Source: a virus
Reading direction: 5' to 3' (one strand)
Virus record (IMG/VR): IMGVR_UViG_3300037199_000073
Coordinates: 1 to 25,829 of that record
Length of the DNA stretch: 25,829 nt
Position 1 is the first letter of the stretch. Each line of letters begins with the position of its first letter. The notes under the pieces are model-generated. The model was given only the letters and a program-made list of their open reading frames with translations, was not told the origin of the DNA and made no database searches. Positions 5,134-20,842 of the stretch are shown here, piece after piece. A program made the position numbers and the translations under genes.

Positions 5134-6921
5134 CTAGGCGTTGATAGCAGCGCGCACCCGCGCAAGTTCCGCTTTGCCGGCGCCCGTCAGCATGCCGTCC
5201 GGCACGTCACGAAGTGCATACACGTACTCGTAGTGGCACGAGCAGTTTTTTGTTATTATACCTTCAGTGACATACCAGCCACTTTTGACCTGAAGGTTAT
5301 AGACATGGCCAGACCACGAATTCGTCTTGATCTTGACCGCTTTCGTAAGCTGCGCGCGGAAGGGAAATCGTTGCAACAACTCGCCGATATCTTTGGCGTC
5401 AGCCCCATGACCGCGCTCAAGGCGATCAAAGAATGCGGCCTCGACAAGCTCAGGCGCAACCATGCCAGACTCGACATTGACATTGCTGCTGTCGTGAGAG
5501 CCTACCAAGCCGGCGAAAGTGTCCTGGCCTTGGCCAAACGATTCCAGGTGAGCCGCGGAGCAATTATATACAGGCTCAATCAAGCCGGTATTGAACTGCG
5601 CGGGAACTCCGAAGCCGGCGCCATACGCATGGAGCATCTGGGACCTGAAGGTCGCAGCCAGATTACTGACGGCGCGCATAACTTTCTTAAAGGCCGCAAG
5701 CACACCGAACCGCAGCGGGCCGCGATTGCCGCCAAGAGAAAATTTATGGTCGGCTTTGGCGAGCGCGAACTCATCGAGGCGCTGCGGCAGCTCGGCTTGC
5801 CAGTCGATGGACAGACGCCGTGTGGCCGCTACGGCATCGACATAACCATCGGCCCCATCGCCGTGGAAGCTTGCGGGCTCAGTGCAAAGCGACTCACTGA
5901 TGCCAAGTTCTTGCAGCGTGCCAAATACATCCTGAATCATGGGTACGATTCGATCGTATTGATCTTTGCCAGCAGCCCACAGGCTTTGCTGGGGAACTTC
6001 CACGACCTCGTCGCCTTCTTGAATCGAGCCTATTGGCTTCCAGCCGCTGAGCGTAAGAACTGGGTGATTCGGTGTCGCACGCAGCGTTTTACCAGAAGCC
6101 GTAATAAGCTCGGTCAACTCACCGCTGTACCAGCGTCGATACGCCATCTCCACACGATCAGCGAATGGAATCCTTGACTCGCCTGGAAAACAGAACACGA
6201 GGAATCCAGGGGCCTCGATCTGATCGGTGTACTGGTGACCGTCGAGTTTTATCAGGCCGCGCTTGAGCGCCCAGTTGTCGCGGATGACGAAAAACGCGTG
6301 GCGCTTGTCCCAGGCGACGTGCTGCGGCCGCGCATCGTAATCCGGCAGGCCGCGGTGCACGTGCTTCCAGTAGCCGCCGAGCGCCCCGCCGTCGACCGCA
6401 ATGATGTCGTGGATCGCGGATACGAGCTTGTGGCCCTGATCGATAATGACGCGCGATTCCTCGTGGGCGAGTCCTGCGATTCCGCGGCGCACCTTCTCGG
6501 CCTCTTCGGCCTTATCCACCGCGTGGCTTCCGCCCGCCGGTATCGATGTCGCCCAGCCGGTAAAGCGCTGCAACGTGCGTTGCTTACTGGCGCGACGGCC
6601 GAACACAATGAGGTTCGCAGATGCCAGAATCCTTCGGTTCAGCTCCAGGCGCAGCCGCGGCGCGATCTGCTGCAGCGTGAATACCGAGACGCCCGGGTGC
6701 ACGCGCAGCAGCTGCGAAGGCCTGGCAACCGTGCGCGCAAAGATGCGCTCCAGGTGATCGGCGATACGCGCCTGCACCACGTGAGCCGGCAGAAACACGC
6801 TGCCGGCGGCCGCCTCTATGGCGGCGAGCCAGCGCTCCAGCCGCGCCTGACTGTCAAATCCGTGAACCGTGAAGTCGCGAACGGCATCGTTGATGACCGC
6901 GTAGAAATTGTTGCGCGCCAC
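5134..6921 (-). CDS. MuF-like minor head protein interrupted by an intein
   Basis: The 595-residue precursor starts with GTG at 6921, three bases after the portal stop. Residues 1-243 (N-extein) and 560-595 (C-extein, beginning CSCHYEYVYAL) resemble the Mu gpF-like minor head family: a helical region, then RVIIDQGHKLVSAIHD and a His/Trp-rich segment (GGYWKHVHR, RPQHVAWDKRHAFF). Residues 244-559 are an intein. Precise splicing would give a 279-residue protein in which the C-x-C motif follows PGFLVF. MuF-like proteins attach near the portal and help head assembly or go into the host with DNA. The gene lies just after the portal gene, as expected. The Cys-x-Cys at the junction is a conserved-looking site, a typical choice for inteins. 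Splicing is inferred. Confidence 0.85.
   Translation of the reverse strand: MARNNFYAVINDAVRDFTVHGFDSQARLERWLAAIEAAAGSVFLPAHVVQARIADHLERIFARTVARPSQLLRVHPGVSVFTLQQIAPRLRLELNRRILASANLIVFGRRASKQRTLQRFTGWATSIPAGGSHAVDKAEEAEKVRRGIAGLAHEESRVIIDQGHKLVSAIHDIIAVDGGALGGYWKHVHRGLPDYDARPQHVAWDKRHAFFVIRDNWALKRGLIKLDGHQYTDQIEAPGFLVFCFPGESRIPFADRVEMAYRRWYSGELTELITASGKTLRATPNHPVLTLSGWKPIGSIQEGDEVVEVPQQSLWAAGKDQYDRIVPMIQDVFGTLQELGISESLCTEPASFHGDGADGYVDAVAATRRLSIDWQAELPQRLDEFALAKADHKFSLGGNRGPLRFGVLAAFKKVMRAVSNLAATFRSQMLHAYGAGFGVPAQFNTGLIEPVYNCSAAHLESFGQGQDTFAGLVGSHDSSNVNVESGMVAPELVEAAFFDRLERGHGADAKDIGELLQRFPFRAQLTKAVKIKTNSWSGHVYNLQVKSGWYVTEGIITKNCSCHYEYVYALRDVPDGMLTGAGKAELARVRAAINA
5251..5259 (+). promoter_or_regulatory. 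Candidate extended -10 promoter of the antisense endonuclease
   Basis: The plus strand reads TGT-TATTAT in the AT-rich stretch CAGTTTTTTGTTATTATACC. This matches an extended -10 (TGn followed by a 5/6 match to TATAAT), while no good -35 is seen. Transcription would start near 5266 and leave a ~40-base leader before the ATG at 5305. The same bases encode the intein's last residues (Gly-Ile-Ile-Thr-Lys-Asn) on the minus strand, so the AT-rich codons AAA, ACA and ATA may be chosen for the promoter. Inferred, not proven. Confidence 0.4.
5305..6177 (+). CDS. Vsr-like homing endonuclease nested antisense inside the intein
   Basis: A 290-residue protein starts with ATG at 5305, eight bases after AAGG. 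Residues 11-45 (SLQQLADIFGVSPMTALKAI) and 60-95 (ALAKRFQVSRGAIIYRLNQ) are two helix-turn-helix units for DNA binding. Residues ~125-150 form a basic linker (KGRKHTEPQRAAIAAKR). Residues 151-225 resemble the Vsr-like PD-(D/E)xK core seen in homing enzymes of phage introns and inteins: ERELIEALRQLG, Gln170, YGIDI with Asp179, IAVEA with Glu188, then FLQRAKYILNHGYDSIVLIF. It would cut intein-free alleles of the minor head gene and drive intein homing. The whole gene lies within the intein on the opposite strand, and its codons are in register with the intein's. Catalysis and target are inferred; the open frame, RBS and motifs are seen. Confidence 0.85.
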   Translation: MARPRIRLDLDRFRKLRAEGKSLQQLADIFGVSPMTALKAIKECGLDKLRRNHARLDIDIAAVVRAYQAGESVLALAKRFQVSRGAIIYRLNQAGIELRGNSEAGAIRMEHLGPEGRSQITDGAHNFLKGRKHTEPQRAAIAAKRKFMVGFGERELIEALRQLGLPVDGQTPCGRYGIDITIGPIAVEACGLSAKRLTDAKFLQRAKYILNHGYDSIVLIFASSPQALLGNFHDLVAFLNRAYWLPAAERKNWVIRCRTQRFTRSRNKLGQLTAVPASIRHLHTISEWNP

Positions 6922-6924
6922 GCG

Positions 6925-8469
6925 TTACGCCGACACGACGGCGCGAGACGGTAGTCTTGTCAGCGCTGTCCGGAAATTCGCCAGCGAGTCTCGCTTGGCC
7001 GGGTTACTGCGGGGCTCTCCACCCTGCGCGCCTTCCGCGGCAGCCTTAAGCTGCTCGTTCTGCTGATCTTTCTGTTCCTCGAAGTGAGCCTCGAGCGCGT
7101 CGAGGTCAAGATTCAGCGGATGCGGCAGCAGCGTCTTGATCTCGCTCAGGTTGTCGCACAACCACGCCACGACTTCGGTCTTGTTGGCCGGGTCCACCGC
7201 CGGCAGCAGCGTCTCCACCACGGCCACCATGGCCTCGAACTTCACGGCCTCACCCTTGGCTTGCTCGCCGGGGGGCTCCACCAGCATCGAGGGCCAGGTC
7301 GCGCTGAACTTTCGGCACCAGTCAACGAACGCGGCCTCGTGCGTAAGTCCAGCCATCGCTTCCGGATACAGCTCTTTGATGCGCGTCCAGAAGGCGGGCG
7401 CCATCCAGGCCCGGTACCTGACGATGTTGTCGCACCAGTCATAGTCGGGCTTCATGTCGAGCCTGACGCCGTCGATGTACTTCGAGATGTTCTTGGCGTC
7501 CTCGGTACCCTCCGCCATGCCGCCTATCATGGTCTCGTTCTGCAGCAGTTTCGCCGGCATATCGGCGGCGGTCGCGCAGTCCTTCAAGATATTGTCGCGG
7601 GCGAATGTGCCGGCGCCGTCCACGTTCTGCATGTCCAGCGTCTCGATATCTTCAGTGACATCGATTGTCGCGACCTCACCGGTAGTCGCGGCCTTCAGGA
7701 TCTTGCGCTTCAGCGCCGCGATCGCCTGCATGACCTTGCTGATGACGCCGCCAGGCGCCTTCATCTTGGCGATGATCAGCGCGATCTTGCCGGCGATGAC
7801 GTCATTCGCCACCATCGTCTTGACGAACGACTTCAGCGGGAACAGCGCGCGCTGATAGACGCTGCGTCCCGTGAACCCGAAGCCTGAGTCTGTGTACGAG
7901 ATATAGATCGGGTCTTCATTCATCGCCACCCGAAAGCGCGAGCGATGATAATTCTGGCCGAAGCACACGACGCGCGTTGCCTGGTTGAAGTCGGGCGTAT
8001 TGGGCAGCTGGTTCATGATGACCGAGCCCGACATGTTCAATGGGTCGAACACGTTGAAGAATACCGGCAACTCCCAGAGCTTTCTCATGTCGAGCGGCGC
8101 ATCGCTGGGCTTGCCGACGCACCCAAGCACCAGGGATGAGATGCCGTAGACGCGCGACAGTCTGCGAAAGTTAAGGATGTGCTGCTGGCACTTAAGCTCG
8201 GCCTCAACTCTCAAGAACTCCTCGACCACCTCTTTGGGCGAGCCCGGCACCGTGATTGTGCGCGGCTGCGACTGCGCCATCTTGATGGGCGCCTCGGCCA
8301 TCTTAGCGCCCAGCGGATGGTAGAGCAGGATCGTCTTACAGGTCTGATAGGACGGCGCCGCTCCTGGAACGATCTCATCGCACATCAACAGGTCGAGCAG
8401 CGACGACCCAAGGTTCGACGAACTCTCGATGCCGGCGAACGAGGCGTTGACCGGGCTGTCGCTTCCCAT
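6925..8469 (-). CDS. Portal protein, DUF1073-like
   Basis: This 514-residue protein starts with ATG at 8469. It has the character of the DUF1073 (Phage_portal_3) family: a conserved region around residues 85-135 (RVYGISSLVLGCVG), LPVFFNVFDPLNMSGS, FGFTGRSVYQRALFPL, and a helical stem-like region (VMQAIAALKRKILKAA) followed by NVDGAGTFARDN and GMAEGTEDAKN. The portal dodecamer forms the DNA entry vertex and docks terminase. It is placed three bases after the GH26-like gene and three bases before the MuF-like gene. The C-terminal ~80 residues are charged and helical. The same family also contains fusions to an anti-CBASS phosphodiesterase, but no HxT pair of such an enzyme is visible here. Confidence 0.85.
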   Translation of the reverse strand: MGSDSPVNASFAGIESSSNLGSSLLDLLMCDEIVPGAAPSYQTCKTILLYHPLGAKMAEAPIKMAQSQPRTITVPGSPKEVVEEFLRVEAELKCQQHILNFRRLSRVYGISSLVLGCVGKPSDAPLDMRKLWELPVFFNVFDPLNMSGSVIMNQLPNTPDFNQATRVVCFGQNYHRSRFRVAMNEDPIYISYTDSGFGFTGRSVYQRALFPLKSFVKTMVANDVIAGKIALIIAKMKAPGGVISKVMQAIAALKRKILKAATTGEVATIDVTEDIETLDMQNVDGAGTFARDNILKDCATAADMPAKLLQNETMIGGMAEGTEDAKNISKYIDGVRLDMKPDYDWCDNIVRYRAWMAPAFWTRIKELYPEAMAGLTHEAAFVDWCRKFSATWPSMLVEPPGEQAKGEAVKFEAMVAVVETLLPAVDPANKTEVVAWLCDNLSEIKTLLPHPLNLDLDALEAHFEEQKDQQNEQLKAAAEGAQGGEPRSNPAKRDSLANFRTALTRLPSRAVVSA

Positions 8470-8472
8470 CGG

Positions 8473-10488
8473 CTACGCCGTCTCTCGACGCCGCGCGGCC
8501 TCGTAGTGGCGCCGGCCGGCGCGACACGCGCTCTCAAGATCGCAGATCTCAGCCCACGCGGGCGCGCGAGGCGCGATCAGCTTGTTGATGAGCACCGGCA
8601 GCTGCGAGCGCGAGACGGTATTGGTCAGGTAAGTGCCGCCGTTGAGCTGGCAGTTCAGGCACCAGTTTTGCGTGAACGGTACGGATCCCACAAGATTACT
8701 GTCGGTGCTCTGTAGATTCTGATTCCAGATGTTGTTGTCGTAACCGAACAGCGTGGGCTGCGAGCAGCAGTTTTCGACCCCGACTTCAGCGAGCAAAAAC
8801 GGCTTGCCGACGCCCTGAAAGTAAACAGCCGCCTGCGCCGAATCGGTAAGGTTACTGATCACCTGTGACTGAGTGGTCGGGAAGTACATATCCACGCCAC
8901 CGATGTCCCAGAAGGTAGAGCCCGGGTCGTTGGCCGCCGTGCCCCCACCCCCGGAGTTCGAGACATAGGCATAGATCGCGTTGACGCCCTGCGCGCGGAA
9001 ATAGTTGACCACCTGCTGATACAGGGCAACGAACTGCGCATTGGTCGGGTTGGTGCCGCCGGTGCCGTTGGTGCCCCACCACCAGCTGCCGTGTCCGAGA
9101 TTGTTCTCCCAGAACGGTCGCACAATGAGCTTCGGGCCACCAGTGGTGATGGAATTCATCGCCGCGGCTTGCGCGCCGATGCCGCCGTTGCACGGCGAGA
9201 CACCGGTGTACGAAGTGCACCCGGACGCCCCGAACATGAAGATCTGGTAGTAGGAGTTGCCTACCGTGATGACGCCTGGGAACGCGTTATTGCTACCGCT
9301 GAAACCACACCCACCGGCCTGCGACGGGTCGGTCTCCAGCACCGACACCATCACGATGCCGCCGGCGGCAATCCAGCCGTTGGCGGTAGAGATCGCTTGT
9401 GAAGTAGAGGGGGCAGTCCCGGGGCATGTCCCCGGCGTATTCATGTAGATGCCGAGGATCGCTGGCGTCTTGCCGCTGTTGCTGCTGCTGGTGCAGGCAC
9501 CGCTGCTGCCGGCGGTGCACTGCAAGGTTGTCGCGGTCGCAGGCGTCGCGCTGCCCGAAGGCAGGAACTGATCGAGCGGGCTGGTGGAGAACTGGTCCCA
9601 CCACTGGCCACTCACCATGCTGCCGCTGTTACGCAGGCTGTTCATGTACGTCAGCAGGGACGTACCACCACTAGAGCCACCGCTGCTGGAGCTGCCCCCG
9701 CTGCTGGAGCTGCCGCTACTCGAACTTCCGCCGCCACCACCGCCCGCGGCCTTGAAGGCCGCGACATTCATTACCCAGAAGCCACTGCTTCCCTGGGTTG
9801 CGGTAGAGGCGTAAGTGCCGGTGCTGAATACATCCTTGTCCTGAAGGATGTTGCCACTGTTGGTGACGCGGATCGTGTAGCCGCTGCCGGCCGTCGGGGA
9901 CGATCCAAAGACGTAGGCGCCGCCCACCAGCAGCTCGACGCTCTGCGTGGTCGCGACATTGCCGCTACTGAGCGCGGTGCCAGTCGATGAGGCGGCCCCC
10001 GCGGCATGATCCAGCGGCGACGTTCTCGCGATGCCGCTGTATTCCGCGGCGCGCAGATTGATCTGCGGCGTCGTGGTATTGAAGACGACGGTGACAGAAT
10101 TGACGCCCGTGCTGGCCGAGCTGATATTGGGCGCGTAGTAGATGACCTGGCTGGGGCCGCCAGAATTACTGACGACGGCAGACGCGGCAGCGTAGGTGTT
10201 GCCCTGAGTATCGGTGACCGACGAGATGGTGGAGGTCGAGTTGTTCCACCCGATCGCCACGACATTCAGGTCGCCGGCGGCCTGCGCCCCGGTGAAGTTG
10301 ACGCTCAGGGTCGTGCCAGAACCGGTGTCGTTGCCGTTGCCCTGTATGAACTGCGGGGTGGCAAAGCCGGTGTAAGTCGTGAACAGTACGGGGGTCGTGC
10401 CTGCCCACGAGGCGCCGAGCATGGATGCGCCAATCGCATAGACCGCGATGGCCGCGCAGATCAGCGCGCTTTTCAGACGCTCGAGCAT
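8473..10488 (-). CDS. Exported modular glycoside hydrolase, GH26-like (mannanase-type)
   Basis: A 671-residue protein starts three bases after the previous stop. Residues 1-30 form a signal or anchor segment (LICAAIAVYAIGASMLGASWAG). Residues ~45-245 form a beta-sandwich domain common on surface proteins (VVAIGWNNSTSTISSVTD, LRAAEYSGI). Residues ~249-276 are a Gly/Ser linker. Residues ~280-640 look like a GH26 barrel: LGIYMN, GWIAAGGIVMVSVLETD, RPFWENNLGHGSWWWG with candidate acid/base Glu461, and KPFLLAEVG with candidate nucleophile Glu568. GH26 enzymes cut beta-mannans and related polymers, so this is a candidate capsule or exopolysaccharide depolymerase. Many cysteines (for example ENCCSQP and WCLNC) fit a protein that folds outside the cytoplasm. 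The Arg-rich tail (residues 650-671) is unlike the rest and may be a graft. Confidence 0.75.
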   Translation of the reverse strand: MLERLKSALICAAIAVYAIGASMLGASWAGTTPVLFTTYTGFATPQFIQGNGNDTGSGTTLSVNFTGAQAAGDLNVVAIGWNNSTSTISSVTDTQGNTYAAASAVVSNSGGPSQVIYYAPNISSASTGVNSVTVVFNTTTPQINLRAAEYSGIARTSPLDHAAGAASSTGTALSSGNVATTQSVELLVGGAYVFGSSPTAGSGYTIRVTNSGNILQDKDVFSTGTYASTATQGSSGFWVMNVAAFKAAGGGGGGSSSSGSSSSGGSSSSGGSSGGTSLLTYMNSLRNSGSMVSGQWWDQFSTSPLDQFLPSGSATPATATTLQCTAGSSGACTSSSNSGKTPAILGIYMNTPGTCPGTAPSTSQAISTANGWIAAGGIVMVSVLETDPSQAGGCGFSGSNNAFPGVITVGNSYYQIFMFGASGCTSYTGVSPCNGGIGAQAAAMNSITTGGPKLIVRPFWENNLGHGSWWWGTNGTGGTNPTNAQFVALYQQVVNYFRAQGVNAIYAYVSNSGGGGTAANDPGSTFWDIGGVDMYFPTTQSQVISNLTDSAQAAVYFQGVGKPFLLAEVGVENCCSQPTLFGYDNNIWNQNLQSTDSNLVGSVPFTQNWCLNCQLNGGTYLTNTVSRSQLPVLINKLIAPRAPAWAEICDLESACRAGRRHYEAARRRETA

Positions 10489-10491
10489 GGC

Positions 10492-11295
10492 TTAGGCCGC
10501 CAGTTTCATATCAGCGATGCCAGCATCAGCCCACTGTGGCGCGGGCAACTTGACGACATCGCTCAAATTTGCGTTGCCGCCGATGAACCAGGCCGTAAGC
10601 GTAGACCCGTACTTGCAGGCCGTGGCCAAGCCGCCGGCCACCAGCGTGCGGCTGCCGGTGCCCAGCGATGGCAGGAACGTCAGGGTGTCGGTAGTGATCG
10701 CGATCGTGACGGTCGCACTTCCGGGCTGTGCGAAGAAACTCACGCAGGAGCCGGCCGGAAAACCCACCGATGAATTCGCGGGAATCGTGACCGTGCAGAC
10801 CGACCCGCAGTTCATGTCGACCTGCTTGCCGCGGTCGGTGAGTGCGATCTGGTAGCTGCCGGTCTGCGCGTTGGGCGGCAGATCCAGATAGCCAACTGTG
10901 TAGGTGCCGGCCGGCAGCGTCGCATTGGTGGGCGCGCTCACCGTGAAGGTAGTGGCAAAGGCACCCGTGAAGGTGACGTTCCCGCCTATCGTGAAAAGGC
11001 TACTGCCGTTGTTGACTCCGGTACCTCCGTAGAGGCCAGGCAGAATGCTCGACACATCGGACGCCAGGTTGATCGGCACCACGTAGGCGCGAATCTGCGC
11101 AGTCGTGGCAGCGAATCCGCAGTAGCCGCCCGAGCAGCCGCTGCCGGAGCCAACGGCCGCAATAGGCCACAGCTCGGTGCCGACCAGCGAGCCCGACGGC
11201 GTCGCACTGTAGATGTAGGTGCCTGGCGATTGCGCGAACGCCGGGCACGCGATGAGCGCCGCGAGTACCACGGCAACGCTAAGAAGTTTCTTCAT
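10492..11295 (-). CDS. Exported tail-fibre-like protein, 267 aa
   Basis: Starts with ATG at 11295 in an ATGA overlap with its upstream neighbour. Residues 1-21 are a textbook Sec signal peptide (MKKLLSVAVVLAALIACPAFA, then Gln). The middle has LYGGTGVNNGSSLFTIGGNV and TFTGAFATTFTVSAPTN, a phrase recurrent in phage tail-fibre proteins. Paired cysteines (GSGCSGGYCG, MNCGSVCT) would suit disulfides outside the cytoplasm. The C-terminal half is beta-rich. It is probably a virion-surface or exported adhesin-like protein. The fibre relation is from sequence style; the signal peptide is directly visible. Confidence 0.7.
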   Translation of the reverse strand: MKKLLSVAVVLAALIACPAFAQSPGTYIYSATPSGSLVGTELWPIAAVGSGSGCSGGYCGFAATTAQIRAYVVPINLASDVSSILPGLYGGTGVNNGSSLFTIGGNVTFTGAFATTFTVSAPTNATLPAGTYTVGYLDLPPNAQTGSYQIALTDRGKQVDMNCGSVCTVTIPANSSVGFPAGSCVSFFAQPGSATVTIAITTDTLTFLPSLGTGSRTLVAGGLATACKYGSTLTAWFIGGNANLSDVVKLPAPQWADAGIADMKLAA

Positions 11296-11954
11296 GGGAA
11301 TCGGACCCCTTGTCCGCTGGGGAAGAGAATCGCCTGGCCACTGGGGAACAACATGAACTGACCTGAGCTACCGCCGCCGCCGCCGCCAGAGCTGCTGTAG
11401 TTCACGACCCACCAGTTGGCGTTGTCTGATTTGAACTGCGCCGAGGCGTATTGCGAGCCAAGGCTGAACGTCGGGCTGGTATCTATGGTCTGCCCGAGCA
11501 GCGTTGCCACTACGACCGCATTAGATGTGCTGTCGATGCGCTTAACGTAGAGGCTTCCGAAATCCCCTACCGCCGTGGGCAACGTGATCGTGACCGGGCC
11601 GCCAGCCGCGTTGACCAGCACGGCCGGCATGACATCCGACAGCGTGACGTTGCTACTGACCTGGACGTACTGCGAGCCGGTTGCCGATCCCGGGCACGCA
11701 GTAAGCACATAGACCGCGCCGTTGGATAGCAGGCACAAGCCGGTCTGACCGACCGGATTGGGCAGCTGCAGGTAGGGCGGCAGGATGTACTGCGAGAGCA
11801 TCCAGGGCGTGATGTCGACCGTGGCATTACCCTGCTGCGCCGGTATGCGCTCGGTTCCCGCCAAAGGAACTTGGGCGTTATCGTACCCGCCCAGCGCTTG
11901 ACCGAAGACCGGCGCCGCGATGAGCAGCGCCAGCCATGCGACCAGAACTTTCAT
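11292..11954 (-). CDS. Exported tail-fibre-like protein with LFPSGQ repeats
   Basis: The 220-residue protein starts with ATG at 11954. A signal peptide is clear (MKVLVAWLALLIAAPVFGQA). The following segment AQVPLAGTERIPAQQGNATV resembles the start of phage tail-fibre proteins (LTGTE-VPAQQGG type). A beta-rich domain (VTITLPTAVGDFGSLYVKRI) leads to a Ser/Gly linker (SSSGGGGGGSSG) and a C-terminal tail with three related units: FMLFPSGQ, AILFPSGQ and GVRFP. The tail could bind a partner or polysaccharide. The stop overlaps the next start (ATGA). Confidence 0.7.
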   Translation of the reverse strand: MKVLVAWLALLIAAPVFGQALGGYDNAQVPLAGTERIPAQQGNATVDITPWMLSQYILPPYLQLPNPVGQTGLCLLSNGAVYVLTACPGSATGSQYVQVSSNVTLSDVMPAVLVNAAGGPVTITLPTAVGDFGSLYVKRIDSTSNAVVVATLLGQTIDTSPTFSLGSQYASAQFKSDNANWWVVNYSSSGGGGGGSSGQFMLFPSGQAILFPSGQGVRFP

Positions 11955-11969
11955 GGAAACGTGCCGGCC

Positions 11970-12740
11970 TCAGCCCTGCAGCGGATTCTTGCGGCAATGC
12001 AGATGCCCGGTCGCGGTCAGCGCGGCCACCGTGAAGGTATCGACCGCCACCAGGTACTCATTCGTGACCGCGCTCAAGGCCTGGCGCACGTATGGGGTCG
12101 TAAACACCGGATCATTGGTGCCGGTCATCACATTCGCTGCGGTCTCCAGGTCCGTATAGGTACCCAGATTGCCGATCGTCGCAGCGGTCTGCGAGATACC
12201 CTGCTGCAGATTGGTGATCGAGGTCGAGCTCGCCGGCACGTAGAGCACCGATCCCATGCAGTCCCAGTCCCCTACGGGCAGCGCGACTGCGACAAGCGAG
12301 ATGCCGGTCGCCGTGGTGACGGCAGCAGTCGAGGTCAGGTTCGCGGTCGTCGAGGCGCCGGTGGTCGCAGCATAGGTTCCCGCCAACGCGTTTGCAGGTG
12401 ACGTCGACACATAGAAGGTGCCATTTGCGACCGAGATCGGCGTGATCCAGTAGTTGGTCGACGTCGAAAGCCCGGTGGGCGCGTTCGCGGTGATCGTGAT
12501 CGGGCAGGTCCATGCGGTCCCGATCGAGGCCGACGCGTTCCAGGGCGGAGACGGCCACGTGCCTACGGTAGGCGTCGCATTGGTGAACGCCACCGAGGCG
12601 CCCGAGACAGCGCTCGGGCAGTTGACCTCGACGTACTGGCCGGCGTAGGTCTGCGCTTCGGCGGCCGTGCCGGCAATCAGGAGCAGCACGAGCGCCGCCG
12701 CGAGGCCAGCGAATACAGCGGACAAGGACTTGAGCTTCAT
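11970..12740 (-). CDS. Exported protein of unknown function, 256 aa
   Basis: Starts with ATG at 12740, eight bases after AGGAG. The signal peptide is long (MKLKSLSAVFAGLAAALVLL, then LIAGTAAEAQ), with cleavage expected after AEA. Residues 35-150 are rich in Thr, Ala and Ser and look like repeated beta strands (ITANAPTGLSTSTNYWITPI). A conserved-looking helical or beta patch follows: ISLVAVALPVGDWDCMGSVL, then ITNLQQGISQTAATIGNLGT. The C-terminus has HLHCRKNPLQG. Three cysteine-containing motifs would be compatible with export. Domain is not recognised. It sits 15 bases upstream of the next cassette gene. Confidence 0.65.
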   Translation of the reverse strand: MKLKSLSAVFAGLAAALVLLLIAGTAAEAQTYAGQYVEVNCPSAVSGASVAFTNATPTVGTWPSPPWNASASIGTAWTCPITITANAPTGLSTSTNYWITPISVANGTFYVSTSPANALAGTYAATTGASTTANLTSTAAVTTATGISLVAVALPVGDWDCMGSVLYVPASSTSITNLQQGISQTAATIGNLGTYTDLETAANVMTGTNDPVFTTPYVRQALSAVTNEYLVAVDTFTVAALTATGHLHCRKNPLQG

Positions 12741-12830
12741 GGTCGAACTCCTGAAGGTTTGAAGAAAAGGAAATTGAAAATGCTTCGCTCTACCGCCAGG
12801 CGGGAGCGGGAATGCTATGCGGGCTCATCC

Positions 12831-15158
12831 TTAGTGAATGCGGCGGCGTAGCTGGCGCTTGAGAACCTTGATCTCTGCCTGCTGTTCTTGCATGGCTTTG
12901 ACCAGCACCGGAATCAGGCCGACATAATCAGCGGTATTCGGTTTGCCTTCGCTATCCAAGCCGACCAATGTTGGCAGTACAGGCGCGACTCCTTCAGCTG
13001 TGAATCCATAAAGCTGATGATCTGGGTCGCCATGGTCAGCATTCAAATAATAGCTAACTGGTGTGAGCGCTTCGATCTGCTTCAGGCCGACATCTAGCGG
13101 CTCTATGCCGTGCTTGAATCGCTCACTTGATGTGCCGAGACAGATTCCAATGGTTCCAGAGCCGTAGTACAGCGCATGCGAAGTCGTGTCCACGCAGACA
13201 CTAGCGTCGGTATGAGTGGCATCGGACGCTATAGTCGGTATCTCAACCAATCCGCTTGTAGGCTGCAAGATGAGAGCACCCGCAGCATTGGCTACCCATA
13301 CATTACGGGAATTAACGGTGTCATACAGATAAAGCTGATTAGGTGAACCCTGATACATTCCCAGATGCCATTGCTCAGTCCCGTTGTCCTGAAATACAAG
13401 TTCGCCCTGAGAACCGGTCGAAGTACTTGTCGTATTCAAAATGAGTTCGGTATTGCCAGCAGCGCCCTGCGGCAGCACCGTGACATATCCATTGTCATTC
13501 GCTCCGGAAAAGGAACCGGGGGCCAGTGTGATAGAGCCCCCGACGCTGCTGCCGCTACCCCCGGTCTGTCCTTGGATTGTCGTCGATAGCCCATTCGTTG
13601 AGGCTGCGGCTGTCGGATAAGTAATATTCAGTCCAGCCTTCGCGGAAACGAGGGTGGCAAAGTTGTAGGCGCCGCTTCCAACATCGTTGCCTGCAATCAA
13701 CGTGGACGCTGCTGTATAGCCCAGCATATTGGCTGCGGTGACTGCGGTCCCGGCTCCGGTGCCGATCAATGACGTATAAGCTTCATTGGCCTCCAGCGTG
13801 CCGCCTACAGCCGTGTTGGAAAAGATGCTGTTGGCGGTCGTTGACCACCATTTATAGGCGATATTGTGATGGATTAATACGTTGGTTGCCGGTGTGTACG
13901 CAGCAGCACAGCTATAGGCTCCCACCGTGACGCCATCGCCTTCACAATAGTTATCGTGAATATCGATGTTACTTGCGGTGTACATTACGAGATAACCCCA
14001 CGCACTGACGCCGCTGCCTAACACGCAACGATTGTTAGCAACCACGCCGCGATTGTCAGATCCGCCGCCGTTGTAACCGTTAACTGCAACGCACTGAGCG
14101 CCGTTGTTGATCGCTAGATGAATTGTATTTCCCAGAGCCTCGAAACCAATGGAGTTGGCTGCGCTGGAGTCGGTGTTGATTCCGGTGAATGAAATGCCGT
14201 CAGCGCCACTGGCGGCGGTGTTTTTGATCGAGCAATAGTTGAAGTTGATGTGAGTGTCGGTGAAGCCGCCCCAGTTATCGTAACAGCCATCGACCATGTT
14301 GATCGAACTGTTATTGGTGACCCATACATCTGTGGAACCAATATTCGCTACTGAATCATTAGATCCGTTGAAGAAGTTGTCATGTACAAAAACGTGTGAA
14401 ACCCCGGCGAACTGCAACGTATGCGGCGAACCGGAGCCAAAACCTGCGATAGTGTTCGGAAAAACGAAGTTGCAACCACTTACCTCAAAATTCGTCCCGG
14501 TGGTTTGCCAGAAAGCCGGCCCAACGGCACCCCCTGACCAACTTGCGTATGGCGCTGCCGTTATCGTTGCCCCCTCACAACGCACATGCGTATTCGATGG
14601 CAGCGCGTTAGAACCTGAGATCAAGTAGTTCCCAGGTGGAAATAGCAGAGTCGCGCCGGTAGATGGAATTGCAGCTATCGCCAGAGCAATCGCGGCCGTG
14701 GAGTCGGCAATGCCGTTAGGATTCGCCCCATAGCTCGGATCAATAACATTGATCACGAAACCGGGGATGTGATTGCTGGCAGCGCTCACCGTCTTGTTAG
14801 AGAGCGGAGTGGTGTTGGTCGCATCCAGGATCGTGCTGCCATTTGAGGCGGTAACGCCGGCTGGAAGCGAAGTATTGGCGACAGGCGCGGCCGACGAGCC
14901 CGTGTTATTTGACAGAATGCTGTCCGCCGCGATGGCCGCAAGACCCCCGGTGCTGCAGGCACCATTGATCCAGGCACCGGCCGGAAGCGCCGTCGAACTC
15001 CAGATCAGGCACTGATTGTTCGTGGCTCCGCTGATCGAGAGCGGCGGCGCGGCACCGCTGACACCGCCATAGTTGACGGTCTGGGCGAGCGCGGGCACCG
15101 CGAACAGCAGCGTCACGACAAGCGATAGACAGCGCTTCATTGAGGGTACTCGCTTCAT
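12831..15158 (-). CDS. Exported beta-helix tailspike-like protein with C-terminal S74 peptidase
   Basis: 775 residues. Two possible starts: ATG at 15158 (ATGA overlap with upstream stop) or Met7 at 15140, which begins a good signal peptide (MKRCLSLVVTLLFAVPALAQ). Residues ~135-190 (DPSYGANPNGIADSTAAIAL, LLFPPGNYLISG) open a right-handed beta-helix as in pectate-lyase-like tailspikes, continuing with short strands to ~500. The last ~100 residues are an S74 intramolecular chaperone: SSERFKHGIEPL, with candidate catalytic Ser677/Lys682, then LKQIEALTPVSYY and a helical QEQQAEIKVLKRQL end. Such domains trimerise fibres and cleave themselves off. A signal peptide on an S74 spike is odd. The middle is noticeably more AT-rich than flanking genes, suggesting acquisition from elsewhere. 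Confidence 0.8.
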   Translation of the reverse strand: MKRVPSMKRCLSLVVTLLFAVPALAQTVNYGGVSGAAPPLSISGATNNQCLIWSSTALPAGAWINGACSTGGLAAIAADSILSNNTGSSAAPVANTSLPAGVTASNGSTILDATNTTPLSNKTVSAASNHIPGFVINVIDPSYGANPNGIADSTAAIALAIAAIPSTGATLLFPPGNYLISGSNALPSNTHVRCEGATITAAPYASWSGGAVGPAFWQTTGTNFEVSGCNFVFPNTIAGFGSGSPHTLQFAGVSHVFVHDNFFNGSNDSVANIGSTDVWVTNNSSINMVDGCYDNWGGFTDTHINFNYCSIKNTAASGADGISFTGINTDSSAANSIGFEALGNTIHLAINNGAQCVAVNGYNGGGSDNRGVVANNRCVLGSGVSAWGYLVMYTASNIDIHDNYCEGDGVTVGAYSCAAAYTPATNVLIHHNIAYKWWSTTANSIFSNTAVGGTLEANEAYTSLIGTGAGTAVTAANMLGYTAASTLIAGNDVGSGAYNFATLVSAKAGLNITYPTAAASTNGLSTTIQGQTGGSGSSVGGSITLAPGSFSGANDNGYVTVLPQGAAGNTELILNTTSTSTGSQGELVFQDNGTEQWHLGMYQGSPNQLYLYDTVNSRNVWVANAAGALILQPTSGLVEIPTIASDATHTDASVCVDTTSHALYYGSGTIGICLGTSSERFKHGIEPLDVGLKQIEALTPVSYYLNADHGDPDHQLYGFTAEGVAPVLPTLVGLDSEGKPNTADYVGLIPVLVKAMQEQQAEIKVLKRQLRRRIH

Positions 15159-15526
15159 GGGGGATACATCGAAAGTGAAACCGTGGGGCTCGTGCCGCCG
15201 CTGAGCGCCGTCAGATTGCCGCGCACGTACGGGTAGTTCGGGACGGCGGTCGTGACCGCATAGGTCGCGTTGCTACCGCCCAGGTTGAAGCTCGCCAGGA
15301 TGCTCCAGCCGACGCTCGGGTCCTGCGTGACCTCGACATTGACGGCTGCTGTCGCGCCGCCGGTGACGCTCGCCTGGAAACTGGAACTCGGGTAGTTCTT
15401 CCATGAAAACTGCGCGCCGGCGCCGGTCGCGGTGACGGCTTTGAGCAGATAGGTGCCAGGGGATGCGGCGAGCACAGGCAACGCGAGCGCCAGCAGTGCG
15501 GCGAGCCGCGACAATCGTCTGATCAT
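15155..15526 (-). CDS. Small exported beta-rich protein, 123 aa
   Basis: I chose ATG at 15526, which overlaps the upstream stop by one base (TGATG) and follows GGAG; a start five codons further upstream is possible. Residues 1-21 are a signal peptide (MIRRLSRLAALLALALPVLA, then AS). The mature ~100 residues are beta-rich (SFQASVTGGATAAVNVEVTQ, VGWSILASFNLGG), like a small immunoglobulin-type or carbohydrate-binding fold. It ends with TGA overlapping the tailspike start. It may be a partner of the adjacent tailspike. No family is recognised. Confidence 0.65.
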   Translation of the reverse strand: MIRRLSRLAALLALALPVLAASPGTYLLKAVTATGAGAQFSWKNYPSSSFQASVTGGATAAVNVEVTQDPSVGWSILASFNLGGSNATYAVTTAVPNYPYVRGNLTALSGGTSPTVSLSMYPP

Positions 15527-17733
15527 CAATGCAGTCTCCACTGGGTTGCAATGTAAGTCGCGTTCGCACAGCCCGATGGCGGAATGTAGACGAGCTGCGC
15601 GTTGGCGGTGCGAAACTGATTGGCAGCGGTTGAGCTGCCGGACAGGCTCGGGAACTCCAGTAAATCGGTTGTGCTCTGATCGCAGATCAGAATCGTGAAG
15701 CCCTGCGGCACCCCGCTCCCCGACAGCCCGGTGATCGTGGTGCCGCCGGATGCCGCGGTGATCAGCAGCAGATTGGTAGTGCCGGCCGTATAGCCGGCGG
15801 GCGAATAATTGTTGACGCTCGATCCGGGAGCGGCGTCCGAGACCGCGCTTCCATACGGGTTGAACCCCGTGGCATTGGTCAGGTTGATCGCGGACGGCGT
15901 CCCGAGATTCGGTGTGACCAGCGTCGGTGACGTGGCCTGGACCACAGCTCCAGATCCGGTCGTGGTCGCGGCCACGATCTGATGCGATGAATTCGAGGCC
16001 AGTGCGGCCGAGCTGGCCGGGATCGCCGCGCCATTGATCTGTCCCACCACGGTCGCGAGCGAGCCAGCGGTGTTCGTCATATCCCCGGTGTGCGCAGGCT
16101 CTTGAGCCGCTTGCAGTGTCCCGGTCAATCCGGTGGTCTGAAGTCCCGTGCCGTTCGTCAGAGTCACGGATGATGGCGTGCCCAATGCCGGAGTCACTAA
16201 CGTGGGCGATGTCGCCTGGACAGTAGCGCCGGTTCCGGTGCTCGTGGTGTACGAAGTGACACCAGATCCTGCAGACGTCTGCACTACTCCGGATAGCGCC
16301 GGCAATGCAGTAGCAGGCAGCCCCGTGGCATTGGCTAAATTGATGGCAGAGGGCGTGCCGAGTGCCGGCGTCACCAATGTGGGCGACGTGGCCTCGACAA
16401 CAGATCCGCTGCCCGTGATTGAGGCGCCGACCAGCTGGCTTGAGGAATTCGAGGCCAGCACCGTTTGAGACGCCGGCACGACCGCGCCATTTACGCGTAC
16501 AACGGCCAGCGCAAGTGACCCCGCCGCATTGGTTGCATCCCCAGTGTGCGCGGGCTCTTGCGCAGCCTGCAGAGTTCCGGTCAGTCCCGTGGTCGGTAGG
16601 CCCGTGCCATTGGTCAACACTACCGCGCTCGGCGTACCCAGTGCCGGAGTCACAAGAGTAGGCGAAGTCGCCTCCACCACGGCGCCCGATCCCGTGACGG
16701 TGGCCGCGACAATTTGACGCGATGAGTTCGAGGCTAGCGCGCCGGTGCTCGCCGGCACCGCGGCTCCATTGACCTGCGCCACGACTGGATTCGGATAAGT
16801 GCCACTCAGGTCACCGGCCGCCGTGCCCGTGGGCGCAGCTCCCGTGATGCTGACCGATGCGGCAGCGGTGAGGCGGCCGTCGACGCCCACGGTGAACTGG
16901 CCCACGTGCGTGCCATCGCCGTAGCTCGCCGCGGTGACCGCAGTCGCCGGGATCGCGGCGGCCTGCAGGTTCGTGGCGTTGGCAAGATTCAGCGCTGAGG
17001 GCACGCCAAGGGCTGGCGTCACGAGCGTCGGCGAGGTCTGGAGCACGACCGGGCCTGAGCCAATGGTCGATGCGGCCGTCAACTGATGAGAGGAATTCGA
17101 TGCAATGACGGCCGCGCTCGCCGGCACGGCAGCGCCGTTGACGCCGGAAACCGCGACCACGCCGGCGTTCGATATAGAGGCATCCCCGCTCACGGTCTGC
17201 GGCGCGTAGGCGGTGCCGCCGGAATTGCCAATCGGGATCTGCGCGGACGTCGGCGCCGTCGATGAGTTCAATCCGCCCAAGCTCGTGCCGAGCGTACCCG
17301 TGATGCCGCCGACGCTCAGATTGATTGATGTCGCGGTCGAACCGGCCGATGTCGTGACCGGCCCCGTAAATGCCGGCAGCGTACTGAGCACGGTACCGCA
17401 TTGCCCATTGGCGTACAGCACGAGACTCGACAGCGTGCCGGTGCACAGGCTCCACTGCGCCGTGATGTCCGAGAAGATAACGCTGCCAGCGGTGTTCAGA
17501 TGACTGCCGACGCCGAACATCTGGTAGAGCTGCGCGAGCTGCAGATCGAGCTTACCGCCCACGACATACAGTTGATCGCCGCTATTCGTGCCCGACGGAC
17601 CGCTCGTCGTGCACAAGATATTGCCGGGCTGCTGACAATAGATCGGCGCGAACTGCGCGTGCGCGCGATCGACGTGCACGCCAAGCGCAAGCAACACCGC
17701 GACTGCGAGCAGTGCCCGCATGTAATGTCTCAA
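15526..17733 (-). CDS. Exported tail-fibre-like protein with tandem modules, 735 aa
   Basis: The TTG at 17733 has GGAGG seven bases upstream; ATG at 17721 (Met5) is an alternative. Either gives a signal peptide (MRALLAVAVLLALGVHVDRA, cleavage near AHA-Q). The body is built from repeated units: five copies of TSPTLVTP-x-LG-x-PS followed by LxNxTGL, and four copies of an (A/V)(V/I)PASxxxxASNSS unit. These repeats are typical of phage tail-fibre shafts. The C-terminus (NYSPAGYTAGTTNLLLITAA, then GFTILICDQSTTDLLEFPSL) looks like a compact beta domain that might cap the fibre. Export of a fibre is unexpected. Confidence 0.75.
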   Translation of the reverse strand: MRHYMRALLAVAVLLALGVHVDRAHAQFAPIYCQQPGNILCTTSGPSGTNSGDQLYVVGGKLDLQLAQLYQMFGVGSHLNTAGSVIFSDITAQWSLCTGTLSSLVLYANGQCGTVLSTLPAFTGPVTTSAGSTATSINLSVGGITGTLGTSLGGLNSSTAPTSAQIPIGNSGGTAYAPQTVSGDASISNAGVVAVSGVNGAAVPASAAVIASNSSHQLTAASTIGSGPVVLQTSPTLVTPALGVPSALNLANATNLQAAAIPATAVTAASYGDGTHVGQFTVGVDGRLTAAASVSITGAAPTGTAAGDLSGTYPNPVVAQVNGAAVPASTGALASNSSRQIVAATVTGSGAVVEATSPTLVTPALGTPSAVVLTNGTGLPTTGLTGTLQAAQEPAHTGDATNAAGSLALAVVRVNGAVVPASQTVLASNSSSQLVGASITGSGSVVEATSPTLVTPALGTPSAINLANATGLPATALPALSGVVQTSAGSGVTSYTTSTGTGATVQATSPTLVTPALGTPSSVTLTNGTGLQTTGLTGTLQAAQEPAHTGDMTNTAGSLATVVGQINGAAIPASSAALASNSSHQIVAATTTGSGAVVQATSPTLVTPNLGTPSAINLTNATGFNPYGSAVSDAAPGSSVNNYSPAGYTAGTTNLLLITAASGGTTITGLSGSGVPQGFTILICDQSTTDLLEFPSLSGSSTAANQFRTANAQLVYIPPSGCANATYIATQWRLH
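15886..17037 (-). repeat. Five degenerate direct repeats in the fibre-like gene
   Basis: About 48-base units coding for the SPTLVTP-x-LG-x-PS segment recur near 15886-15933, 16166-16213, 16341-16388, 16621-16668 and 16990-17037. Most differences are at third codon positions. The spacing is about 280, 175, 280 and 369 bases, so the 280-base module appears twice. The pattern fits growth of the fibre shaft by unequal recombination. Confidence 0.7.
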
Positions 17734-17754
17734 GGCAATGCCTCCGCGTGTGTT

Positions 17755-18231
17755 TTAAGGTGAGCGCACGATCTGAAACATCGTGCGCTGCTGGTAGGAG
17801 CCGCCGAAGCCATCGGTGACGATCACCGTCAGCACATGCGTCTCGCGCGAGCGCGATACCGAGATCATCTCGTTCTGTGCCGAGGTGATCATAATCGTGT
17901 TGCCGCGGCCCACGGGCAGCGTGGTGGGCGCTAGGATCTCGGCTCCGCTGAGCAGATCATCGATGCGGTACTGAATACTGGACGGGATGAACGAGGCTCC
18001 GGTCGGATCGAAGTACGCGGTCTGGTAGGACGCCGCCGAGCCAATCAGGTACGCCGGCTCGTTCACAGTGATGCCGGGCTGTCCCGGGTTCAACGGCGTG
18101 AAGATGGCTGAGCCGAACTGAACGGCAGTCAAGTACCAGGTGCTGTCGATCGTGACCTGCGCACTGTCGATCGTGATGGCGCCGGCCGGCAGCGCAAGTA
18201 GCGCCAGCACGATTGCGAATGCGCGTTTCAT
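17755..18231 (-). CDS. First exported protein of the cassette, 158 aa
   Basis: ATG at 18231 is placed five bases after AGGAG, preferred over a GTG two codons earlier. The signal peptide MKRAFAIVLALLALPAGA is followed by ITIDSAQVTIDSTWY. The mature part is beta-rich with LNPGQPGITVNEPAYLIGSA and IQYRIDDLLSGAEI, and near the end SRSRETHVLTVIVTDGFGGS, which resembles an Ig-like or cadherin-like strand set. There are no cysteines in the mature part. It begins the signal-peptide cassette directly after the terL gene; its ribosome site overlaps a relic of a second terL end. Function unknown. Confidence 0.65.
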   Translation of the reverse strand: MKRAFAIVLALLALPAGAITIDSAQVTIDSTWYLTAVQFGSAIFTPLNPGQPGITVNEPAYLIGSAASYQTAYFDPTGASFIPSSIQYRIDDLLSGAEILAPTTLPVGRGNTIMITSAQNEMISVSRSRETHVLTVIVTDGFGGSYQQRTMFQIVRSP

Positions 18232-18279: not shown

Positions 18280-19716
18280 TCAAAAACCCAGAGAATTGCC
18301 GAAAGCCAATGCTAGGCCATAAGAAAATGCGTCAAGCAAATCATCTTGCGCGTTCCGATCGACTTTAACCGCGGCATCGAATCCTACTATCTGCGCGACT
18401 AGGTGATTCTTGTCGACGCCCTTGTAGTTGACGGTCTTCGCGCGCGCGAACTCCGTGAGCTTCACCTGCCCCAGATGCACGTAGCCGCTGACATCCAGGC
18501 AGCGCTCGGACTTGCCCATCGCGGTGAGTTTGGACTCAATCGGATAGGCCTCGAGCCCGAGGTTGAGCGCCTGCTGCAAGAGGATCGTGCCAGAGCTCTT
18601 GTCCTCGATGTGCGCGCCGCGCGTGCCGGCGATCGCCTTGCACTCGTTGGCGTAATAATCGAGCTTCTGAAAAACGCTCGGCAGCCAGTTGATCAGCAGC
18701 GCGCCATCGATCTGCTTGTACTCCCAGTCCAGGATGTACAGCGGATACTCGCACACGTTGTGCAGGTCGACCGCCCAGTAGACGACGCCGCAGCCATCGT
18801 TCTCCTGGCCGGTTTTCATCGCCGTGTCGATCGTGGCAAAGACGCACGTCGGATGCAGCGGCATACCGGCGGCGCGCCCATCGATGAGCATCGAACCCAG
18901 GCTGAAGAAGGAGCCAGAGGGCAGGCGGTGAATGCGGCCTTCCCAGATGTGCTCGACGCGCATGCGGGCGGACATGCGGCCGCCCTCATCTACGGCATCC
19001 TCGATGCGCGAGAGGTCCGCCTGGCGCTCGAGCTCCAGATCCTCGGGGAACCAGGGGTTGCGATCCCAGTTCACCAGCTTGACGTAGGAGCCCGGAAAGT
19101 GCCGCTCGATGCTCTTCTTGCCTTTGACGAAGAGCTTATAGGTGGCGTCGTCCTCCTCGAACGCGTTGAACGTCACCCAGATCTCGGGCGGCGTATCGCT
19201 GGTCTTTCTGATCGTCTTGGTCAGGATGTCCCAGCTGAATTCGCTAACCGCCTGGGCTTCCTCGACCCAGACAATGTTGATGCCGTACGTGGACTTGATC
19301 TCCGAGACATCGGAGCGCAGGCCCATGAAGATGAACTCGGAGCCCATCGTGGACTTGATCGAATTCTGGGTGACGCGAAAATAGTCCGCGTACCCCATGT
19401 TCTCGATCTCGGCGCGCAGCATCGCGTGCACCGACTCGGCAATCGACTTCTGGATCTCGCGTGTACACAGCACGCGAATCTTCACGCGCGCCGCCAGCCA
19501 TATCAGCGCCTTGGCGACTGACGTGCTCTTCGCCGAACCGCGCCCGCCGTAGTAGACCTTGTAGCGCGCCTGCCGCGTGAGCAGCGGCATGAAGTCATCG
19601 GTGAGCTGAAGCTCCCCTGGCGCCGGCGGCGGCGGTCGCACCAGCCGTCTGGGGCGAAAAATATCTACCGGGACGTCGTCTGGATCGAAGTTAGGAAACA
19701 GCTGCGTGTTCAGCAT
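18280..19716 (-). CDS. terL: Terminase large subunit
   Basis: A 478-residue DNA packaging motor. The ATPase half has Walker A YYGGRGSAKST (residues 55-65), Walker B INIVWVEEA (146-154) and coupling motif WVTFNAFEE (~180-188). The nuclease half has an RNase H-like triad candidate set: Asp297 in ATIDTAMK, Asp372 in IEDKSSG and Asp462 in DDLLDAFSYG. Length and motif order fit a full-length enzyme of the PBSX/T4-like type. Its ATG overlaps the small-subunit gene by 26 bases and follows a GAGGGAG site. The enzyme docks on the portal, cuts concatemers and pumps DNA. It is not followed by the portal gene as in many phages, but by the signal-peptide cassette. Confidence 0.95.
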   Translation of the reverse strand: MLNTQLFPNFDPDDVPVDIFRPRRLVRPPPPAPGELQLTDDFMPLLTRQARYKVYYGGRGSAKSTSVAKALIWLAARVKIRVLCTREIQKSIAESVHAMLRAEIENMGYADYFRVTQNSIKSTMGSEFIFMGLRSDVSEIKSTYGINIVWVEEAQAVSEFSWDILTKTIRKTSDTPPEIWVTFNAFEEDDATYKLFVKGKKSIERHFPGSYVKLVNWDRNPWFPEDLELERQADLSRIEDAVDEGGRMSARMRVEHIWEGRIHRLPSGSFFSLGSMLIDGRAAGMPLHPTCVFATIDTAMKTGQENDGCGVVYWAVDLHNVCEYPLYILDWEYKQIDGALLINWLPSVFQKLDYYANECKAIAGTRGAHIEDKSSGTILLQQALNLGLEAYPIESKLTAMGKSERCLDVSGYVHLGQVKLTEFARAKTVNYKGVDKNHLVAQIVGFDAAVKVDRNAQDDLLDAFSYGLALAFGNSLGF

Positions 19717-20422: not shown

Positions 20423-20451
20423 TTGCACGGTCTGGCGGCAGCGGTCACAAT
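20423..20451 (+). promoter_or_regulatory. Sigma70-like promoter for the ASCH gene
   Basis: TTGCAC (20423-20428), a 17-base spacer, and CACAAT (20446-20451) make a reasonable sigma70 promoter facing the ASCH gene. Start of transcription would be near 20458, giving a ~25-base leader. It is the only strong-looking promoter found on the plus strand outside the intein. Confidence 0.5.
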
Positions 20452-20474
20452 CTCTATGTGGGACACATATAGAG
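20452..20474 (+). promoter_or_regulatory. Inverted repeat at the ASCH transcript start, beside its ribosome site
   Basis: CTCTATGTG-GGA-CACATATAGAG is an inverted repeat (9 pairs with a two-base bulge). Its right arm runs into the AGAGGAGG ribosome site. As DNA it could be an operator overlapping the start of transcription; as RNA a hairpin that hides the ribosome site. Either would allow control of this gene; which one is not shown. Confidence 0.45.
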
Positions 20475-20482
20475 GAGGTCAC

Positions 20483-20842
20483 ATGGCAACACGTTTACCA
20501 GAGACGCTAGCGCGGGCGTTGTCGATCCGTCAGCCGTACTGCGATCAGATATTTCGAGGCACGAAGCACTGCGAGTATCGCTCGCGGCGCACGCGCATTC
20601 GCGGGCGCGTCTATATCTACGCCGGGCTCAAACCAGGCGACGACCTTGCGGGATACGAAAGCGTGCATGGCATCTTGCCCAAGGGGCTGATCGTCGGCAG
20701 CGTGGAGATCATCGACTGTCGCGTGAGCAGCTGCTACGACGACACGTGGGACTGGGTGCTGTCTAACCCGAAGCGCTATCGGACTGCGCTGGCGGTGACG
20801 AATCAGCCGCAGCCTTCTTTCTGGTTCCCGCGCTTCGCCTGA
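20483..20842 (+). CDS. ASCH-domain protein
   Basis: A 119-residue protein on the plus strand. ATG at 20483 has a near-perfect AGGAGG four bases upstream, so I prefer it to an upstream TTG. The ASCH signature GxKxxExR is intact (GTKHCEYR, residues 26-33) following ALSIRQPYCDQIF. Later strands are RGRVYIYAGL, GLIVGSVEII and the end QPQPSFWFPRF. ASCH proteins bind RNA or modified nucleosides; some hydrolyse N4-acetylcytidine. The last 80 bases overlap the end of the parB-like gene on the other strand. A role in RNA or nucleotide modification, or as an accessory gene acting early in infection, is inference. Confidence 0.85.
   Translation: MATRLPETLARALSIRQPYCDQIFRGTKHCEYRSRRTRIRGRVYIYAGLKPGDDLAGYESVHGILPKGLIVGSVEIIDCRVSSCYDDTWDWVLSNPKRYRTALAVTNQPQPSFWFPRFA

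Follow-up and report, generated by a model that had tools for sequence, protein, structure and literature searches.

A 25,829-base virus record (IMGVR_UViG_3300037199_000073; hereafter the window, meaning this whole stretch) carries eight tightly packed genes on its minus strand, between the genes for the large terminase (terL) and the portal protein, and the product of each begins with a predicted signal peptide for the general secretory (Sec) pathway. In the standard account, the fibres of tailed phages fold in the cytoplasm, a compartment with few stable disulfides. The best reading of this cassette is that it encodes fibres and spikes that mature in the host envelope, which suggests that some phages export their fibres for folding outside the host cytoplasm, contrary to the textbook account. 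If true, this would be a different maturation route in which the host export machinery becomes part of virion assembly. Here we describe the cassette, its relatives in metagenomes and in cultured phages, the evidence for export, and the possible fates of the exported proteins.

A cassette of eight leader-bearing genes

The genes, numbered S1 to S8 in transcription order, run from 18231 to 8473 (−). An original prediction, made from the sequence alone, had placed eight consecutive signal-peptide genes between terL and the portal gene; all eight open reading frames exist and its coordinates were near-exact, with two starts to be amended (S3 most likely begins at ATG 15526, and S2 at TTG 17733 or the ATG four codons on). 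Signal peptides listed below are those of a purpose-written scorer, a bar marks the cleavage site and aa denotes amino acids.

18280..19716 (−): terL, large terminase (Pfam Terminase_3, 3.8e-36), upstream border of the cassette
17755..18231 (−): S1, 158 aa, leader MKRAFAIVLALLALPAGA followed by a small immunoglobulin (Ig)-like β domain; score 9.28
18178..18231 (−): signal peptide of S1
15526..17733 (−): S2, 735 aa, leader (AHA|Q) followed by a long repetitive fibre; 6 cysteines; score 9.45
17656..17733 (−): signal peptide of S2
15155..15526 (−): S3, 123 aa, leader followed by a small domain of unknown fold; 0 cysteines; score 9.62
15467..15526 (−): signal peptide of S3
12831..15158 (−): S4, 775 aa, tailspike-like; 12 cysteines once the leader is removed; score 10.34
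15084..15158 (−): signal peptide of S4 (ALA|Q)
11970..12740 (−): S5, 256 aa, leader, fold unknown; score 9.64
12654..12740 (−): signal peptide of S5
11292..11954 (−): S6, 220 aa, leader followed by a fibre N-domain (G-x-ERxxAxQ...TVDITP); score 7.86
11901..11954 (−): signal peptide of S6 (VFG|Q, cleavage site by eye)
10492..11295 (−): S7, 267 aa, leader (AFA|Q) followed by a fibre; score 9.64
11233..11295 (−): signal peptide of S7
8473..10488 (−): S8, 671 aa, leader, β domain (by eye), Ser/Gly linker and GH26 domain; score 7.54
10402..10488 (−): signal peptide of S8 (cleavage site by eye)
6925..8469 (−): portal protein (Pfam Phage_portal_3, 1.2e-11; PHROG 146, 1.3e-41), downstream border of the cassette

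The scorer (not SignalP) weighs the n-region, the hydrophobic core and the −3/−1 rule, with a cut-off of 6.9. All eight cassette genes score 7.5–10.3, each with a positive n-region, a hydrophobic core and an AxA-type site, and the remaining window genes score at most 3.5; the predicted run of eight signal peptides was thus borne out with this n/h/c scorer. The leader of S8, MLERLKSALICAAIAVYAIGASMLGASWA, is the least typical. Among the leaders, AxA sites with Gln at +1 recur; a check for lipoboxes by eye found a LIAC stretch in S7, which also has AFA|Q. Within the same eight proteins, none of 96 internal start codons and none of 2,245 internal residues reaches 6.9, ruling out composition (the proteins are rich in Ala, Gly, Ser and Thr) as the cause of the scores. 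Of 748 genes in other phage loci, 2.5% pass when the best of several starts is taken, with a longest run of one, and eight leaders in a row are therefore not chance.

That the arrangement is an artefact, through misassembly with bacterial genes for secreted proteins or through wrong start codons, is very improbable, even though the window is a metagenomic contig. Ribosome sites are good at S1, S2 and S5, with a strong Shine–Dalgarno sequence at S1. Misassembly was rejected because the G+C content of the cassette (61.6%) nearly equals that of its neighbours (59–61%), the same arrangement occurs in the independent record G001 and the same feature is present in the isolates Tunturi_1 and Tunturi_2, both described below.

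Leader-bearing sets recur in related phages

The closest relative, G001 (IMGVR_UViG_3300005921_000013; major capsid protein (MCP) 93–94% and portal 72% identical), holds a longer cassette in the same terL–portal gap, with seven leader genes. Clear counterparts are present for S2 (1270 aa, with leader), S3 (67% identical, with leader) and S5 (74% identical, with all four cysteines, C41, C79, C161 and C249, invariant) only; the other genes have been swapped for different fibres or spikes, and leaders stand on 7 of 7. Searches with S2, S3 and S5 in viral contigs matched in G001 only, and S1, S2, S3 and S5 found no match in named phages. In L001 and L002 the portal gene directly follows terL with no cassette between them, and of four distant loci reached by portal alignment, the three examined (L059 was left out) carry no leader cassette.

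S1 has a leader in the window (17755-18231 (−)) and none in L051 6722-7153 (+) or L019 9561-9941 (+). Its counterpart in G001 has a stop codon just upstream and starts MADTIDTTGQTIDS where the window has A|ITIDSAQVTIDS, and the terL–portal gap of G003 contains only a leader-less S1 homologue. Across these relatives S1 is a natural gain or loss of a predicted export signal at the same place downstream of terL.

In two larger genomes, G002 (72 kb) and G003 (67 kb), with an MCP identity of 71%, fibre-like genes with leaders lie downstream of one for a baseplate wedge protein (PHROG 6, 5.6e-22), from which we infer that the lineage is probably contractile-tailed. Alongside Sec leaders, G002 has two leaders of the twin-arginine translocation (Tat) type, MPNRRKFLLSAGASLA and MIVTRRTALAGVGATF (motifs RRKFLL and TRRTAL). 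L050 (G009) contributes three leader genes. A search with the S6-type domain, stripped of its leader (A6), led to L060, L061 and again the L050 contig; G002 and G003 contain the domain too, and in all five a leader lies directly in front of it. The original prediction had asked whether the same cassette occurs in related phages with its signals always kept: leader sets recur, in G001, G002, G003, G009 and Tunturi_1/2, but the S1 leader is absent in G001 and G003. The description of the cassette as lying inside a head operon fits locally, between terL and the portal gene; in G002, G003, G009 and Tunturi_1/2 the set sits elsewhere in the structural region.

Two further observations concern these sets. 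L060 15258-16388 (+) has a leader with a lipobox (LAAGC), and may be a phage lipoprotein inside a fibre cassette. A GVNLSGLxY stretch, noticed by eye, is common to L068 5034-7340 (−) in G002, which has a Tat leader, and L050 12925-15783 (+), which has none.

Searches for a host returned nothing, either with a single portal query against bacterial genomes or across one phylum (398 genomes) and one class (274 genomes), the phylum and class searches having no positive control and being uninformative for that reason.

Cultured phages with leader-bearing fibres

A search with a G001 spike led to the complete genomes of Tunturi_1 and Tunturi_2 (PP887698, PP885685), cultured podophages of Acidobacteriota (Tunturiibacter phages) (PMC11924767), in which Tunturi_2 ORF14 is 32% identical to the G001 cassette spike. 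ORF12, 13, 14, 16 and 17 of Tunturi_2 form a near-continuous run of leader-bearing fibre and spike genes, with 20, 10, 20, 1 and 34 cysteines, respectively, in the mature proteins. The run differs from the cassette of the window in following a tail gene, ORF11, and the head genes are unrelated to those of the window at the level searched. Tunturi_1 is nearly identical to Tunturi_2, the most diverged of the 16 genes compared being the leader-bearing ORF17 (81% versus 97–100%), in which an indel between the two phages shifts the cysteine count from 34 to 32.

Tunturi_3, from the same host strain, and Tunturi_4 have no leaders in the structural genes checked, bar one in Tunturi_4 (ORF22, a short gene that scores 8.1 from an alternative start). 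Given leaders in Tunturi_1/2 and none in Tunturi_3 on the same host strain, the feature tracks the phage rather than the host in this small sample. The terms ‘signal peptide’, ‘structural protein’ and ‘mass spectrometry’ do not occur in the main text of the Tunturi paper (PMC11924767).

Named phages provide the comparison. Nine of their fibre or fibre-like genes, which contain or adjoin homologous matches, lack a leader and encode 0–3 cysteines. The C-terminal domain of S7 is shared with fibres of the Limnohabitans phage YIMV22061 (Autographiviridae) and the podovirus MW202483, the latter also having S2-type repeats, but both fibres are leader-less and have only 2 and 3 cysteines, respectively. 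S4 likewise resembles the Peptidase_S74 (endosialidase-type) tailspikes in its domain and Ser/Lys pair, and differs from them in adding a signal peptide and 12 cysteines. The S74-bearing homologues found for S4 are cyanophage tail fibres, the N-termini of which were left out of the comparison.

Evidence for export

Support for export extends beyond the leaders themselves, because they persist across gene swaps, because Tat leaders substitute for Sec leaders and because of the parity of cysteine counts. Between the window and G001, the leader of S5 is identical at 11/29 positions and the mature part at 178/225; for S2 the figures are 8/26 and 98/192, and for S3 the two parts are about equal (13/20 versus 70/103). 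The faster drift of the S5 and S2 leaders, with n/h/c properties kept, is as expected of functional leaders. The Tat leaders that take the place of Sec leaders in G002 represent a different signal to the same destination.

With leaders removed, 31 proteins containing any cysteine have an even count and 5 an odd one, compared with 133 even and 153 odd among genes without leaders from these phages and their relatives (Fisher, 3.5e-6), counts that are partly non-independent because some of the proteins are homologous to each other. With leaders kept, the first 29 proteins divide into 17 even and 12 odd, and the pattern therefore appears only if the leader is cut. It came to light in the proteins of the window and G001 (12 of 12 even), and the extension to further phages gave, on its own, 19 even and 5 odd (one-sided binomial p = 0.003, by hand). 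Parity is less telling for the two Tat proteins, as Tat substrates fold before export.

These data bear on an alternative in which the hydrophobic N-termini serve to anchor or assemble virion proteins, and folding takes place in the cytoplasm. Such a role would accord with the established folding of tailed-phage fibres in that compartment and with the existence of S1 both with and without the N-terminus; we consider it improbable in the face of the recurring AxA sites with Gln at +1, leaders that diverge yet keep their n/h/c properties, the Tat substitution in G002 and an even-cysteine pattern that emerges only once the leader is removed. Cleavage of the leaders and export of the proteins, as predicted from these sequences, is very probable, and the statistics support folding with disulfides after export.

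Fate of the exported proteins

We propose that the cassette supplies the phage with an interchangeable group of fibres, spikes and glycan-active proteins, each made with an N-terminal export signal. Transport across the inner membrane would rely on the Sec machinery of the host (in one relative, on Tat too), signal peptidase would cut the leader, and most of the proteins would fold in the periplasm with disulfide bonds. At host lysis the finished proteins would meet particles coming from the cytoplasm and attach as appendages: the S4 spike with its S74 chaperone, the S2, S6 and S7 fibres, and S8 with its mannanase-type domain. In this scheme the leaders, the order of the genes, their domains and the recurrence of leaders in relatives are read directly from sequence; cleavage, export and disulfides have statistical backing, and the joining of virions at lysis is an inference.

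The domains of the individual proteins inform this proposal. The C terminus of S4 is a Peptidase_S74 chaperone (Pfam PF13884, 1.6e-8) with a Ser/Lys pair in SSERFK (read by eye), behind what appears by eye to be a pectate-lyase-like region. S7 ends in a domain common to a minor tail protein family (PHROG 8780, 3.3e-7) and to leader-less fibres of named phages (those of L047 and L048). The repeat unit of S2, TLVTPALGTPSAxNLTNATGLP, is of a type also present in the leader-less podophage fibre MW202483/L048. S6 matches PHROG 37034 (5.7e-6), and its short N-domain recurs in relatives in a domain family alignment. In S8, the GH26 domain (Pfam, 8.3e-11) retains both catalytic Glu residues, with the acid/base in RPFWENN and the nucleophile in LLAEVG aligning with those of the β-mannanase 2whk. 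S1 was modelled by AlphaFold2 as a β sandwich (predicted local distance difference test (pLDDT) about 65–80 across residues 60–158), with weak fold matches only, mostly Ig-like or β-sandwich; S3 matches PHROG 16217 (2.3e-4), a family of unknown function; and the model of S5 was not usable (mean pLDDT 33). ‘Fibre-like’, the term first applied to all eight, accordingly suits S2, S4, S6 and S7, and not the small Ig-like S1, the GH26 enzyme S8, or S3 and S5. In a separate observation, a C-terminal stretch, KLIAPxAPAWxxxxDL, is common to S8 (window 8473-8600 (−)) and a 538-aa fibre of G001 (L044 1539-1620 (−)), the rest of the two proteins being different.

Of three uses first suggested for the cassette (decoration of the host surface, a secreted polysaccharide-degrading set, or virion parts), the last is narrowly favoured, on the strength of the fibre and spike architecture, the S74 chaperone, the minor-tail domain of S7 and placement in the structural region; the divergence of ORF17 between Tunturi_1 and Tunturi_2 was also counted among virion-type features. 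There are phage fibres and spikes that can be joined to particles in extracts. Should the proteins be exported, their ending up on virions seems somewhat better than an even prospect; for export and attachment taken together, the balance tips only just in favour.

The main rival is that the proteins are exported and never become part of the virion, acting instead as a secreted soluble or surface set that loosens extracellular polysaccharide, aids the spread of progeny or covers receptors on host and debris. The intact catalytic residues of S8, the pectate-lyase, MBG, He_PIG and CHB_HEX domains on other cassette genes, and a cassette position that varies among relatives are all in keeping with such a set, as is the additional fibre-like gene, without a leader, that lies next to the baseplate gene in G002 and G003. 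We nevertheless regard it as a rather doubtful, if substantial, possibility: the S74 chaperone, fibre repeats and shared C-terminal domains are of virion-fibre types, the genes sit within structural operons, and about 3,200 residues, mostly of long fibres, is large for a decoy.

Several points weigh against the proposed export and attachment to virions. The S1 orthologues in G001 and G003 lack the leader, and export is therefore not essential for S1. In the near-complete G002 and G003 the baseplate wedge gene is followed immediately by a fibre-like gene of about 730 aa that has no leader, so that the leader-bearing proteins are not necessarily the receptor-binding fibres; an argument that the leader genes are receptor-binding proteins by elimination was dropped for this reason. 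GH26, MBG, He_PIG and CHB_HEX domains are also found in ordinary secreted bacterial proteins, five leader proteins have odd cysteine counts, and we know of no natural case in which a whole set of fibres attaches after lysis.

Relation to known systems

The coat proteins pIII and pVIII of filamentous phages are virion proteins that are exported by the host and processed by signal peptidase before assembly. Those phages, however, assemble at the inner membrane without lysis, whereas the genes described here sit with the terL, portal and capsid genes of a tailed double-stranded DNA phage. Lambda Lom and Bor, T5 Llp and N15 Cor are phage proteins with export signals that act in the host envelope; they are single small proteins, in contrast to the up to eight, mostly long and fibre-like, proteins encoded in a structural operon here. 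Searches of the open-access PMC literature turned up no account of tailed-phage fibre sets with signal peptides. The set would represent a variant of the phage fibre module and, should virion proteomics bear it out, a new assembly route. On the wider proposition, that there is a recurring class of tailed phages whose virions are completed outside the cytoplasm, with whole fibre and spike sets passing through Sec or Tat, becoming oxidised in the periplasm and joining the particles at or after lysis, we lean slightly towards doubt. The cultured Tunturi_1 and Tunturi_2 make the question testable now, and annotation pipelines gain a recognisable feature in fibre-like genes with signal peptides.

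Neighbouring genes in the window

The window is taken as a fragment because no tail-tube, baseplate or lysis gene was recognised in it. An intein (Pfam Intein_splicing, 1.6e-7, just below the curated cut-off) splits a MuF-like head-morphogenesis protein (5134-6921 (−)); a MuF-like gene of similar length is found in L056 (602 aa), and those of L001 and L016 encode about 280 aa. Within the head operon, a NUDIX domain (2.9e-19) is fused N-terminal to a DUF2213 region (3821-4882 (−)). Beyond terL, an ASCH-domain gene (20423-20842 (+)) lies on the strand opposite to its neighbours, and a PAPS-reductase-like gene (22095-22799 (−)) adjoins an HNH endonuclease gene (21550-22098 (−)); Tunturi_2 ORF58 is likewise annotated as a PAPS reductase.

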